Positions 9,744-52,363 of a stretch of DNA of 64,000 nt are shown here, in pieces. Where the stretch lies: NCBI GenBank assembly GCA_963575645.1, contig OY754468.1:26994465-27058464 (forward strand). The letters run 5' to 3'. The DNA is from Xanthostigma xanthostigma (taxonomy: Eukaryota > Arthropoda > Insecta > Raphidioptera > Raphidiidae). The notes below the pieces were generated by a model. The model was not told where the DNA came from. It did not search any database and saw only the letters and a program-made list of their open reading frames with translations. Every line of letters begins with the position of its first letter. Within the stretch, counting starts at the first letter, position 1. The translations under genes and the position numbers were made by a program.

Positions 9744-10947
9744 TATTCAAAGCAATGGCACGTCAATCCGGTGTCGGAGAGGCAACCGGATGGCGAGTGG
9801 TAATCTGGGCCTATGAGTGGTACAGAACCCCCTGGTAGCGGCCAAAGTGACCCCAAATGGACGGGGGCGGCGATATGGGGGTGGAGCAAAATCGAAAAAT
9901 GTTTGAAAAGGCAACCGGATAAAAATGCGGTTGCATTGAAGGAAATACCCTAATTATATAATAAATTTTTTTGCCATCCGAAACACGCGGGCCGTTTTTG
10001 CACTAGCGAATAAAAAAAAATAAAAAAAAAACTGAAAAGGCAACCGCTTCAAAATTAGTGAGCATACGTATTGACACCACCAAAGGTTGGCAAAAAATTG
10101 TCATCCGATCCTGATGGGCAGTTTCGGAGAAACAACCCCTCAAAGTCGCCGAAAAACCCTTTTTTTCGATTTTTTCAACAATAAGTAAAAAAACACACTA
10201 AAAATTGTTCAAATCGGATGGCATTCGAAATTTATACTGTCCTAAGTACAAATAATAGTGTATCAATGCCATCCGATTTCGATTAAATTTACCCCTATTT
10301 AGCCACCCCCCAAAACTCATGAAAATAACAATTTTATGCAGCGTATGGCATTATTTTTATTGTTATTGAGTTTTGGGGGTTGGCTAAATAGGGGTAAATT
10401 TAATCAAAATCGGATGGCATTGATACACTCTATTATTTGTACTTAGGACAGTATAAATTTCAAATGCCATCCGATTTGAACAATTTTTAGTGTGTTTTTT
10501 TTTACTTATTGTTGAAAAATCGAAAAAAAGGGTTTTTCGGCGACTTTGAGGGGTTGTTTCTCCGAAACTGCCCATCAGGATCGGATGGCAATTTTTTTCC
10601 AACGTTTGGTGGTGTCAATAAGTATGCTCACTAAATTTGAAGCGGTTGCCTTTTCAGTTTTTTTTTTATTTTTTTTTTATTCGCTAGTGCAAAAACGGCC
10701 CGCGTGTTTCGGATGGCAAAAAAAATTTATTATATAATTAGGGTATTTCCTTCAATGCAACCGCATTTTTATCCGGTTGCCTTTTCAAACATTTTTCGAT
10801 TTTGCTCCACCCCCATATCGCCGCCCCCGTCCATTTGGGGTCACTTTGGCCGCTACCAGGGGGTTCTGTACCACTCATAGGCCCAGATTACCACTCGCCA
10901 TCCGGTTGCCTCTCCGACACCGGATTGACGTGCCATTGCTTTGAATA
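9744..10947. mobile_element. Giant foldback (palindromic) element, ~600-bp arms
   Basis: The two arms run from TATTCAAAGCAATGG (9744) to CCATTGCTTTGAATA (10947), are nearly identical throughout, and meet at a loop of only a few bases near 10340-10350. The ends can be read as TTCAAAGCAATGG flanked by TA, as in Tc1/mariner-type targets, though TA is itself part of the palindrome. Each arm carries repeated short motifs (GGCAACCGGAT, GCCATCCGA and variants, about seven per arm). Frames inside are arm reflections, not genes. Confidence 0.85.
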
Positions 10948-13660: not shown

Positions 13661-13981
13661 AATTCAGTGCTAAAAGTACTTTTACTTTCATCTTTGAAAG
13701 TCGTACCAGCAGCCGAGCATAAGTTTAGTGTCTGTAAGTGACTGAACTGAAGTTAATATGAAACTATCCTGACTTCTAATAGATATACGGAAGCCTTTTC
13801 CTGGTGTTTTTAATTTGCATCCAAAAAGAAATTGGATTTACTAATATTGTACGTAGACTACACATAAATGCTAAATAAAGAGCAGACTACTAGAAACTAG
13901 ATGGTTGAGGGCACAGAACAGTAAGTTGAGGGTTTTGGAAAATTAGGTAGCGTTTATCTCCTCACTTCTTTCAACATTTAA

Positions 13982-14401
13982 GAGTATTCGTCCCTGCAAA
14001 CACCCCCTGCACCCTTCATCTCAAATCTTTTCCCCTCGCCTAAAAACGGTTCGCGCTCTCCTGACGCTATTTTTAAAGCTAGAGGGTTCTAGTAGACGCC
14101 AAATGAAAGACAAAGAATCAGACTACAGATCCTTCAGGCGAATTTTTCGAAAATAAATTCCTGAAAAAACTTACAACCTTTTGAAAAAAATAATAAGTTA
14201 CGTAATATTTCACACATAGGCGAAACTGTTTTTCATAAAATTCGCCTGAAGGATCTGTAGTCTGATTCTTTGTCTTTCATTTGGCGTTTACCAGAACCCT
14301 CTAGCTTTAAAAATAGCGTCGGGAGAGCGCGAACCGTTTTTAGGTGAGGGGAAAAGATTTGAGATGAAGGGTGCAGGGGGTGTTTGCAGGGACGAATACT
14401 C
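13982..14401. mobile_element. TTAA-flanked miniature element, copy 1 (420 bp)
   Basis: The termini GAGTATTCGTCCCTGC and GCAGGGACGAATACTC begin inverted repeats of about 180 bp, and the element sits between TTAA and TTAA, the piggyBac/Kolobok-type duplication. A second copy of exactly the same length is at 51944-52363. Short frames inside are reflections of the arms. Confidence 0.9.
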
Positions 14402-15437
14402 TTAAACACTCGACAATAGATGAATGTGTAGAAAATTATAACACAAACTGATGATTCAAGTATTTGCAAATTTAAAAGGTTAAATTGAATGAAAATAATT
14501 TGTAATTTATTGTTGAACTTCGGTTCTCCTACTTTGTTATTTCAAATATTTACCTTCGTAATGCCGTTTGAAATCATTACTAAAAATAATCACTTTTTAT
14601 TTGAAATATGCATAACTTGAACAAAAAACTATTATGTCTATACTATCAGAGCTGGGCAATGCTGAGTGCTTATAGTGCTTGTAATGATGCTTTAAGGATT
14701 TATAAATGCACTAAGCATTTCTTAAAACAGATGCCGTATTCTTAGAGCACGGACGTACACGCGTGAACAGGCATTCTATGCGGATCTCTTCTATGAATGC
14801 CATTTATTTTCTTTATAAGGATTTCTGGAGTTATTAAAGGCTATATTAAATAAGAAAGTGCGCTACAACATATGTCTATCTTCATAATAAGCAATGCACA
14901 AATCCGGGGGACGCCGGACCAGGCTACTAATTTTAAACTATTGCAAAACAGTTTCCAATGCACAATAAAATTGATGATTAAAATCGTGATAATTTAATTA
15001 AAGCTGTTAAATATTGGCATACAAATAATGTCTATTATAGAGATGAGTCAAAAGTTTGAATTGTTACAACTGATGAAAACATTGTCGTTGAAGTGGAAAC
15101 TGATTTCCGATCAAAATACTTCCACATACTAACCAGGAATAAAGGAACCGGGAACGAGAATAAACTTGGTCTGTAGGATGGAATTATATGGCGGGGTATG
15201 TTAGCGGGATGTCGCTTGAGTGTTTTGATTCCACGCCTGTGGATCAATTTAATCAAAGTTTTTCGTTCAGGTGTTAATGAAATTAAAAAAAAAATCACTT
15301 TTACTCGAGGCAGAATAGAACAATCAGATACCACGACTAATAGACACCAACATTTGACCGTAATAACAAATAATACACCGAAGTATCACATCGTTGTTTT
15401 TTGTCACACTGGATTTCAATTAAAAAAATATGTAGAA
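14402..15437. other. Intergenic, no gene seen
   Basis: Overlapping frames on both strands near 15035-15485 lack family motifs. Nothing else recognised. Confidence 0.4.
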
Positions 15438-26430: not shown

Positions 26431-26896
26431 CAAGTGTGCGCTTCTGATGACAAAAAATAAAATGTGGATTTGCGTTTAACGCGTCTATAGTTCAATCAAC
26501 GAAGACCAAATACTGCCAAATAGGGGAAATAATTCGTGTAAAAGCGATTTTTGGCATAGTTGTAGGGGATGGTGTCTGAAGCAACATACTCAAAGTACTG
26601 ATGGATGGGGGTGGAGCTAAGGGGTGGGGGGTGGCGTTAAGGTCCCCTTTTAAAGTTTTTCTTACATATCTCGTAAACGGTGGCTCATAACAAAAAAAAT
26701 TTTTTACTCAAGCAATCTACATAAAATTCTCTACAAAAAAGGTCCTGTACACTTTTTCGCTGGGATCAATATTTAACGAGATATCAAAGAAGAAAAGTTA
26801 ATTATATGCTCAATTCTCGCATTTTTACGTATTGGTTCAAACTGCTGGCGCACACGGCACGTTTCTGTAGCGTCGTCGGGCGCAAGGGACTGGCGG

Positions 26897-27548
26897 TAGA
26901 GGTGGTACAAACTGTTATTTTTTAATAACAGTTCCGTTCCGTTCCTGTTCCGCTTACAGAACAGTTCCAAAAACCTGTTACTTTTTAACAGTTCCAACGT
27001 TGGAACCTTGACATTCTCGGAATAGCTTGTAACATGCAACTTATAAAAATTTCAAATTATGAAATGTGTATGATTTGTATTGTTTCGTGAATTAATTCTA
27101 TTATTCAAGTTTAATAATTTAAGGTACCTAATTATTACAAATATACTTTTACAGAATGTAAGTAACAGTTGTTCTGCAGAATGCATATACTATGACAAAA
27201 TCAAATAATATTATTTCACCACAGTTCAATATTATTCGCGTATGTAATATAAAATGAATAAGCCGTCCAGTTTTGTCTGAAACTTTGCGACGCATGTTAA
27301 TGTGATGGTGTGATACTAAAATCGACTTTACGTGCAATGTACGCTAGGCGTAGGTAAAGAGCATAACTGTTGCAGTTTGCAAAGTAGGTACAATAATAAT
27401 TTACAACGGGAACGGAGAATGTTTATTTTATGCAGAAGAACAGTCGAAGCATTGGAACAGCCCGGAACAGGTATTTTATTATACTGACAACTGTTCCAAT
27501 CTGTTCCCGTCCCAAAATAACTGTTCCTAGTATTTTGTATCATCTCTC
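26897..27548. mobile_element. hAT-type element inserted in the TIR element (652 bp)
   Basis: Bounded by the perfect 8-bp duplication ACTGGCGG (26889-26896 and 27549-27556). Ends TAGAGGTGGTACAAA and TTTGTATCATCTCTC are imperfect inverted repeats, with GTTCC-rich blocks (ACAGTTCCGTTCC, GGAACAG) repeated inside each end. No transposase frame, so non-autonomous. Confidence 0.9.
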
Positions 27549-27556
27549 ACTGGCGG

Positions 27557-28835
27557 CAAGGTCACCGCCAACCAATCACGACGCACACGTGGAGTATGAA
27601 ATGGAACCCGTCCTCCAACGTTTCTACGATTTGCCATCAAAACATTACCTACGTCCAGAAACATTACGGTCCAAACTGTATGGTGGTTTTTGATGGTTAC
27701 AGTGATGTCAACAGCACTAAACGAGCAGAGCAGAAACGACGAGGTCTGACTAAAACGTCGGTTGATATTAACTGTAACGAAAATACGATCATCACTGTTA
27801 AACAGGAGCATTTCCTCGACAACGAAAAAAATAAAACGAGGCTGATTCAGTTCCTCACCGAGAAAATGACAGCAGCAGGGATTGAAACAACTGTTGCAAC
27901 AGGAGATGCTGATGGTACTATTGTCAGATGCGGGTTGGATAACTGTTGTAATAGTTGGGGAAAATGTCGACTTGATAGTCCTCCTCATGGGATTGGCTCC
28001 ACCAAATATTAACGTGTTCTTTATGAAACCAGGGCGTGGAAAGGTGGAAACCAAATTGTTTCCAGTGCGACAACTTCAACAGTTTCCACTTGCCAAGACA
28101 ATTCTCCTTCTCCACAGCTTCTCCGGATGCGACACCACCACTGCAATCCATGGAAAGAGCAAAGTGGGAATTGCTAAGCTGTTCACGGATAAACCAGACC
28201 TGACCCAAAAAATCTCAGACATTTTTAATGAGCCTTCAACATCACCTGAGAGTATTGAACAGGCCGGCGAGAAACTGTTTCTGGCAATTTACAAAGCGTC
28301 TAACCAGGAACAAAATCTAAATAAATTACGATACTCAGCTTTTTTGAGAGCATCAATGAATCCGAAATCAGATCAGGCCACTCTTCCTCCTACCAGAGAA
28401 GCTTCGAAGCAGCACTCGTTGAGAGTGTACCTACAGGTATCATTAACCACAGAAGTTGTCAAATATATATTAAATATATATTTGAGCTAAATACTTACGT
28501 TGATCGTATTACATCTTTTACAGATACAACAATGGCTCAGCAAGCCCCTACCACCTACTCAATGGGGCTGGGCCAGAGGAGACGATGGCATCCTAAAGTC
28601 GGTGACAACAAACGATCCTGTGGCACCCGACTCCATACTCATCAGCATATTTTGCCGATGTAGGACTGGGTGTGGGGTGCGATGCGGCTGCCGGAAAGCA
28701 GGAATTGCCCGCTCCAGTGTTTGCGGGGTATGCTCCGGCTCATGCACTAACGGAGCCCCAATCAAAAACACCGTCGACGATGATGTTGATGATGATATTA
28801 TGTTAGATTTAGAAGATAATAGGAATTTTTTTTAA
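27557..28835 (+). pseudogene. FEN/XPG-like (PIN-fold) nuclease with C-terminal CXC-like domain, frameshifted
   Basis: Frames at 27596-27945 and about 27945-28436 join across a +1 shift; an 87-bp GT-AG intron (28437-28523) leads to a second exon ending at TAA (28833-28835). FEN1-like blocks appear in order: VVFDGYSDVNSTKRAEQKRR (like FEN1 VFDGxPPxxK), ATGDADGTIV (like the EAEA block), VIVGENVDLIVLL (like EDMD) and FSGCDTTTAIHGKSKVGIAKL (like GSDY plus helix-hairpin-helix). Exon 2 begins IQQWLSKPLPPTQWGW, followed by CRCRTGCGVRCGCRKAG and VCGVCSGSC, a metal-binding CXC/TSO1-like cysteine cluster, and an acidic tail (DDDVDDDIM). One acidic position (Asn in GENVD) is not typical. I recognise the family as one found repeatedly in insect and cnidarian genomes. 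The nuclease assignment is my inference from motif order. The start is lost or upstream of the hAT insertion. Confidence 0.7.
28437..28523 (+). other. Spliceosomal intron inside the transposon gene (87 bp)
   Basis: The donor CTACAG/GTATCA and the acceptor TTTTACAG/ATACAA join VYLQ to IQQWLSK in frame, which is the expected continuation of the family. The intron itself has stops in the reading frame. Presence of an intron argues against a processed retrocopy. Confidence 0.75.
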
Positions 28836-29162
28836 TACATGCCATACCTACTCAAAGAACTGTATCTTTATTTTATTATTGACCATCTTCTTTCCTTCAC
28901 GTCTCATTAAATATTGATCCCAGCGAAAAAGTGTACAGGACTTTTTTTGTAGAGAATTTTATGTAGATTGCTTGAGTAAAAAAATTTTTTTGTTATGAGC
29001 CACCGTTTACGAGATATGTAAGAAAAACTTTAAAAGGGGACCTTAACGCCACCCCCCACCCCTTAGCTCCACCCCCATCCATCAGAACTTTGAGTATGTT
29101 GCTTCAGACACCATCCCCTACAACTATGCCAAAAATCGCTTTTACACGAATTATTTCCCCTA

Positions 29163-29553
29163 TTTTTGCTTCTTTGAGTGAACTACTATGTCAGTTCCTT
29201 ATATGAAATAATCATTTTCAATTAAAAAAACGAAACAAGCAAAATAAAAAAATTAAGTAAAAACGAAAACTCGACTAAGGCTATATATTAACAAAACAAG
29301 CTTCCAATATAAAAAGTAGTTGGTCTAAAAGATATTAAATTCATAATCAATTTCCAGATTTTGAAAGTGGAATTAAGATAAAATGGTAATCCAGTGCCAA
29401 AAAAGACTACTAAAAGATTTAAAGTCATATCATAAATTGAAACTTAGTGTCACCACACTCGTACATTAATACTGGATTTCTGAAACAATTTGCAAAGTTT
29501 AAAGTACATATAGGTACCTTAGCATTGATTTACTTCAAAAGACCACGCACTAT
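29163..29553. other. Intergenic, no gene seen
   Basis: Unclassified AT-rich spacer. Confidence 0.4.
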
Positions 29554-51588: not shown

Positions 51589-51943
51589 TTAGCGTCGAAA
51601 AACTCAAAACGACACTTTAACACACCAATCACAAGTTACATAATAAAATTTAATTAATTATTAATATACGTTCGACAACTAAGATCATTAGTATCTAAAT
51701 TAAAAATAATCATACACAATTTAATACTATTAATAATTTTACAAGGTTTAACAAAACAAAATTGCGTATTCAAGGGACGCGAGGCTGAAAACTGACAACT
51801 GTTCACTCTTGTACGCACAAGATTGCGCAATGCGCATACGATGGAGTATGGTATATAGAATTAGCGTAGGAGATGCACAAGATTTCTTTATCATTTATAC
51901 CGCACGTGCACTGGTACACGAAAATCTACTATATCGGGCTTAA

Positions 51944-52363
51944 GAGTATTCGTCCCAGCAAACACCCCCTGCACCCTTCATCTCAAATCTTTTCCCCTCG
52001 CCTAAAAACGGTTCGCGCTCTCCCGACGCTATTTTTAAAGCTAGAGTGTTCTGGTAAACGCCAAATGAAAGACAAAGAATCAGACTACAGATCCTTCAGG
52101 CGAATTTTTTGAAAAAAAATTCCCGAAAAAACTTACAACCTTTTGAAAAAAATAATAAGTTACGTAATATTCCACACGTAGGCGAAACTGTTTTTCAAAA
52201 AATTCGCCTGAAGGATCTGTAGTCTGATTCTTTGTCTTTCATTTGGCGTTTACCAGAACCCTCTAGCTTTAAAAATAGCGTCGGGAAAGCGCGAACCGTT
52301 TTTAGGCGAGGGGAAAAGGTTTGAGATGAAGGGTGCAGGGGGCATTTGCAGGGACGAATACTC
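51944..52363. mobile_element. TTAA-flanked miniature element, copy 2 (420 bp)
   Basis: The same 420-bp element as at 13982-14401, with only scattered differences. It follows TTAA at 51940-51943; the right flank reads AGAA, so the right TTAA has changed. Frames inside are arm reflections. Confidence 0.9.

Follow-up and report, generated by a model that had tools for sequence, protein, structure and literature searches.

The mobile element at positions 26488 to 29185 of the window (the whole 64,000-nucleotide stretch of Xanthostigma xanthostigma DNA that was analyzed) is very probably an internally deleted cut-and-paste transposon, most likely of the AcademX type, that is mobilized in trans and whose full-length form, represented by the locus L022, has a DDE-like core. 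The original prediction was of a terminal inverted repeat (TIR) element in which a FEN-like nuclease joined to a CXC domain takes the place of a known transposase. The replacement of a transposase was not supported: L022 and its cousins encode a DDE-like region in the same polypeptide as the nuclease, which is probably fused to a DDE transposase and not a substitute for one. Full-length copies encoding a DDE transposase had been named in advance as evidence against the prediction; what was found comes close to this, namely full-length copies with a region that is probably of the DDE type and in some of them has weak, sub-cut-off similarity to Pfam DUF6589. The element represents a new family, probably of a known kind and probably not a new class; a deletion derivative can mimic a new transposon class.

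The whole element spans 2,698 bp on the forward strand and is a deletion derivative that lacks the transposase-like core. Comparison with 21 other loci placed its termini at 26488 (TAGTTCAATCAACG...) and 29185 (...GAGTGAACTA), 20-35 bp further out than the 26521..29162 first proposed for the TIR element. The trinucleotide CTA is found on both sides of the insertion (26485..26487 and 29186..29188, no strand assigned) and represents the target site duplication (TSD). A 2-bp duplication of TA was considered and ruled out, as TAG...CTA are the element termini and the 3-bp duplications lie outside them. The inner TIR arms (26518..26781, forward strand, and 28902..29165, reverse strand) are near-identical, as had been predicted, with 260 of 264 bases the same by direct count; an inverted-repeat search of the window reported 274 nt at 97%. 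The outer ends, determined by comparison of copies, differ from one another in sequence: the left end, TAGTTCAATCAACGAAGACC..., occupies 26488..26517 on the forward strand, and the right end, which reads TAGTTCACTCAAAGAAGC... in reverse complement, occupies 29166..29185 on the reverse strand. The stretch 26876-27593 consists mostly of a nested miniature element (26897..27548, no strand assigned), which is bracketed by ACTGGCGG at 26889-26896 and 27549-27556 and has borders visible in 17 copies; we take it to be hAT-like from its TSD length and terminus. The first base of this nested element is T in 6 of the 17 copies, including the window, and C in the other 11. Three further features lie downstream on the forward strand, namely the FEN-like nuclease remnant (MKWNP...VYLQ, 27596..28436), an intron-like GT...AG insertion of 87 bp (28437..28523), and a CXC-like cysteine cluster with an acidic tail (28524..28835). 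Elsewhere in the window, an element-like sequence at 9744-10947 has 229-nt arms that are 100% complementary and a second inverted pair inside, and two copies of a hairpin-like repeat (13977-14430 and 51915-52363) have arms that are 92-97% complementary.

The same genome (623 Mb in 28 contigs) was searched for further copies, and the 21 comparison loci were drawn from the best 40 TIR matches, a choice biased to young copies. All 22 short copies (the 21 loci and the window) are flanked by matching duplications, 3 bp long in 20 and 4 bp long in 2. Random 3-mers in this DNA match at a rate of 2.3%, so chance is excluded, and a TIR element with a fixed short target duplication is supported. The 17 short copies that were aligned share both the deletion and the nested-element structure, which indicates that a single deletion derivative has been amplified. 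Fold-back structures were observed in 4 of the 21 fetched short copies (L001, L003, L011 and L014), with differing break points and with 3-bp duplications in each case; such structures are what interrupted repair of excision breaks would be expected to give. Among the matches listed, the nuclease remnant was present at no fewer than 65 loci, L022 included, at a protein identity of at least 88%.

L022 (C5:19370000) is a 5,634-bp element (L022:591-6224) with a single intact open reading frame (ORF) of 1,444 codons. It has the same inner TIRs as the window element, with arms of 275 nt at 98%, and near-identical outer ends. The window aligns with the left ~386 bp of L022 and then from L022 position 4709 onward. 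The 3,731 bp missing from the window (L022 978-4708) contain the transposase-like core, and the gap they leave is mostly occupied by the nested hAT-like element. The window gene corresponds to the last ~380 residues of the L022 protein, at a DNA identity of 93-95%, and the nuclease remnant is homologous to the C-terminal part of that protein. The lack of a transposase in the window copy is thus due to an internal deletion in this copy. A DNA search located the upstream coding DNA of L022 at a single genomic position. L022 itself has no TSD and its right terminus carries CG in place of TA, so it is perhaps not an active source.

Alignment of related proteins included L022 (1,444 aa), L023 (1,457 aa), L024 (1,520 aa), L025 (two ORFs) and L026 (two partial ORFs), with 38-43% identity to L022 in the aligned rows (39% for L024 and 43% for L025). 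A conserved upstream region and the nuclease lie in one ORF in L022, L023 and L024. The upstream region contains the blocks DNADxN...TxDG, FDQxL(Y/F)...RLGGFH and IEQ(x)xMR...GG(L/F)T...GRG, and is followed by DGG, FDGY, DAD, G(E/D/Q)D(V/I)DL and GCDTT and then by the cysteine cluster. We infer that the three upstream blocks hold candidate DDE-type residues within a putative DDE fold. Pfam scans of these proteins revealed no family above its curated cut-off. DUF6589, presumably a domain of Academ-type proteins, gave E 1.3e-5 and 24.6 bits in the central part of L024, just under the cut-off of 27. Weaker DUF6589 matches were identified in L037, L040, L041 and L039, those in L041 and L039 over the same short stretch; the scan gave no DUF6589 match in L022, L023, L025, L026 or L038, and none of the scanned proteins reached the curated cut-off.

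The same layout, with TAG...CTA ends and 3-bp duplications, recurs in two separate families, L024 and L025. L024 has TIR arms of about 1 kb, ends TAGTGCAGG and the TSD CAT, and L025 has TIRs, ends TAGCCCAGGG and the TSD TTT, with the termini and TSDs of both assigned by eye. With these two, the proposed association of gene and TIRs was seen in three families of this genome that are divergent from one another. No clear TIR was found in the stretches fetched for L023 and L026, and searches of viral and prokaryotic collections found no relatives. L037:12-4691 and L040:777-2627 belong to a deeper lineage whose transposase region is 27% identical; L037 has the nuclease-like motifs HEEAD, SDTD and GCDY behind a 1,076-aa ORF. 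At L034, L035 and L036, nuclease-CXC remnants lie beside inverted repeats, and matches to the L022 protein begin at residues 1006-1031. Among the other nuclease loci, 65 of 74 have no listed DDE match within 6 kb (the nuclease list holding the best 150 of 157 matches), and 44 of 55 DDE-region loci have no nuclease match nearby among those same 150 of 157. Special retention of copies with only the nuclease and CXC cluster was considered and not adopted, since DDE-only loci are common too among the matches listed.

To characterize the C-terminal domain we used hhalign profile-profile comparison with a FEN profile built from a small family (human FEN1 and host exons). This analysis gave a score of 29.9 (29.3 with inserts kept), whereas none of 200 column shuffles reached that score (the highest gave 24.7) and the reversed profile gave 14.9. 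When sliding windows of the L022 protein were compared, those reaching the C-terminal region scored 34.5 and 35.1, the preceding one scored 23.7 and the rest were below 20. Addition of three more families gave an E-value of 1.5e-4. The probability reported by hhalign itself was modest (9-51%), and for this reason we name the domain FEN-like and not a proven FEN. The aligned stretch covers residues 141-256 of human FEN1, with DAD/EAEA, EDVD/EDMD and GCDTT/GSDYC in register, pairings that agree with the original prediction. Three of the five acidic motifs are accordingly in register; IDGG and FDG fall outside the alignment and were matched by eye, in the same order as IDAS and FDG of human FEN1. 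The nuclease motifs quoted in the original prediction are present in the window, and its assignment of a FEN-like nuclease agrees with the profile comparison; judged from sequence, we regard the domain as FEN-like.

Other searches with this domain returned little. Pfam scans of the window exons and relatives contained no XPG family. The window exons gave no useful match in Pfam or in PDB sequence searches, and neither did the full-length protein, its alignment or the nuclease-domain alignment in PDB. A genome search with XPG_I identified five places, none among the listed transposon copies. The PIN-like family NYN_YacP was weakly touched by 2 of 7 members (best E 0.049). A match to RestrictionSfiI in one member (E 0.005, below the cut-off) was taken as chance. 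A single-sequence AlphaFold model of the window nuclease part was of low confidence (mean pLDDT 38).

The cysteine cluster of L022 reads FCRCTTGCGVRCGCRKAGIACSSVCGVC, and its spacing is similar, not identical, to the tesmin/TSO1 CXC pattern. One cysteine that L022 retains is replaced by arginine in the window copy. The Pfam TCR family matched 2 of 4 proteins at 9.0 and 9.4 bits (E 1.8-2.4), under a cut-off of 23.5 that none of the four passed, and gave no match in the other two. The proposed CXC/TSO1-like cluster is present and resembles CXC in its spacing, with TCR below cut-off and one cysteine lost in the window.

Transposition in this family may be pictured as follows. The full-length protein of ~1,444 aa would carry possible zinc ligands at its N-terminus, then the DDE-like core, the FEN/XPG-like nuclease and the CXC-like cluster. 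The core would cut at the TAG...CTA ends and join them to target DNA with a stagger of 3 nt, sometimes 4 nt. The cysteine clusters could help to bind the long TIRs, and the nuclease might trim flaps or cut the second strand. Short elements, including the one in the window, would be moved by the full-length protein supplied in trans. A stronger version assigns the FEN-like nuclease behind the DDE core, together with the CXC cluster, an essential part in transposition, with derivatives that retain only the nuclease and CXC cluster acting in trans; we consider this unlikely.

Analysis of the short gene revealed a broken remnant. A single spliced gene had been predicted, and a GT...AG stretch lies at 28437-28523, but a 17-bp deletion at 27940/27941 breaks the frame in the window, so that GDADGTIV is read in one frame and GENVDLIV in another. 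The same deletion occurs in 3 of the 17 aligned copies; these three (the window, L002 and L005) occupy different sites and have their own duplications (CTA, TAC and TGA, respectively); thus, the broken gene is dispensable in cis, which speaks for mobilization in trans. The remnant ORF begins with an ATG and, with the 87-bp GT-AG insertion taken as spliced, is intact in 2 of the 17 copies. Changes common to two or more copies comprised 15 nonsynonymous and 5 synonymous (pN/pS 0.88), and private changes comprised 30 nonsynonymous, 5 stops and 14 synonymous (ratio 0.73). Comparison of the short copies with L022 gave a ratio of 0.40-0.59, in which the L022 branch is included. These small counts fit a short gene under little or no selection. 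Every one of the 17 aligned copies carries the 87-bp insertion, and the eight relatives read at this site (L022, L023, L024, L025, L033, L034, L035 and L036) lack it, which makes it a candidate for a recent intron gain inside the transposon. Its borders form a near-repeat, CTACAG/TTACAG. In a genome search with the insertion, the best 40 of 65 candidates were scored and each was full-length at 99-100%; we take these to be family copies, since many lie beside nuclease matches.

These data also bear on a regulatory role, in which the truncated nuclease-CXC product would compete for the TIRs and so regulate or repress in trans, in the manner of truncated P-element proteins. The short gene retains the cysteine cluster, a putative DNA-binding part, and the ATG, with a frame that stays open to the end in the two copies if the GT-AG stretch is spliced, would allow such a product. 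Against this, only those 2 of 17 copies have an intact ORF, and pN/pS among the common changes, from 20 changes only, is near neutral. We consider a regulatory product improbable.

Assignment to a superfamily apart from Academ, in which a DDE transposase was joined independently to a FEN-like nuclease, is to be weighed against AcademX in the same way. It would account for the absence of Pfam matches above curated cut-offs, and the likeness to Academ is one of description, but in the accessible portions of the published descriptions the nuclease and the 3-4-bp TSD coincide with AcademX and the length with Academ; an independent origin appears quite unlikely. A mobility enzyme consisting of the FEN-like nuclease and CXC protein alone, defining a separate transposon class, would explain why the nuclease remnant occurs at 64 or more loci besides L022, the window included, and why nuclease-CXC remnants lie beside inverted repeats in other families (L034, L035 and L036). 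However, copies have spread even when their nuclease frame is broken, the short gene shows only a weak sign of selection, and full-length relatives have a conserved DDE-like region upstream. Copies with the nuclease only are also not special, given that 44 of 55 DDE loci lack a nuclease match among those listed; a separate class is highly unlikely. Capture of a host FEN1/XPG-family gene as a passenger of a TIR element, suggested by the FEN-like order of the acidic motifs, is the most improbable origin, as it is already disfavoured by the presence of the domain across divergent families (in several that are 38-43% identical it forms one polypeptide with a shared upstream protein), and none of the five XPG_I places (four of them examined with human FEN1) is among the listed transposon copies.

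An internally deleted, trans-mobilized AcademX-type element was therefore retained as the preferred reading and compared with known systems. AcademX is reportedly a lineage of the Academ superfamily described by Kojima in 2020, and its nucleases are of the XPG type. Among the papers searched, none contained both the words Academ and XPG, and AcademX occurred in one. With respect to the FEN1/EXO1/XPG/GEN1 nucleases, (E)DAD, EDVD, GCDTT and the G-K stretch that follows are aligned to EAEA, EDMD, GSDY and GIGPK of human FEN1; the domain differs from this group in being part of a transposon protein and in being missed by XPG_I, Pfam and PDB sequence searches. KolobokP and other Kolobok lineages that have accessory nucleases also combine a DDE transposon with an extra nuclease, but in the accessible part of the source the His-Me finger nuclease of KolobokP is a separate protein and the element architecture is different (PMC9587614). 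AcademH belongs to the same superfamily by name, and the weak DUF6589 similarity may link the two; in contrast, AcademH is described, in the portion of the source available, as encoding a helicase and generating 9-10-bp TSDs (PMC10045372), and no helicase family was among the Pfam matches here.

The closest correspondence is with AcademX. The same partial source describes AcademX as an Academ lineage that encodes a nuclease and generates 3- or 4-bp TSDs, and relates the differing TSDs of AcademH and AcademX to the helicase in the one and the nuclease in the other (PMC10045372). L022 likewise encodes a nuclease, FEN-like by profile comparison, and the short copies have 3-bp (20 of 22) or 4-bp (2 of 22) TSDs. 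The TIRs and full length also agree, with 5,634 bp in L022 compared with a mean of 5,565 bp for curated bivalve Academ elements, as given in the accessible text (PMC10294476). Differences are that the window copy lacks the transposase-like core and that the CXC-like cluster is absent from the available part of the published AcademX description. The under-described transposon class first proposed is, by that description, mostly covered by the existing name AcademX (PMC10045372). What has been gained is a well-delimited family: its ends are exactly placed, TSDs are identified, one full-length ORF is intact and derivatives number in the dozens. Such a family makes it possible to test what the nuclease does in AcademX-type transposons, including its link to TSD length. 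Taken together, the nuclease, the 3-4-bp TSDs and the 5.6-kb length fit the accessible published descriptions, and the L022-type element therefore probably belongs to the AcademX lineage, likened to it by description and not by sequence.
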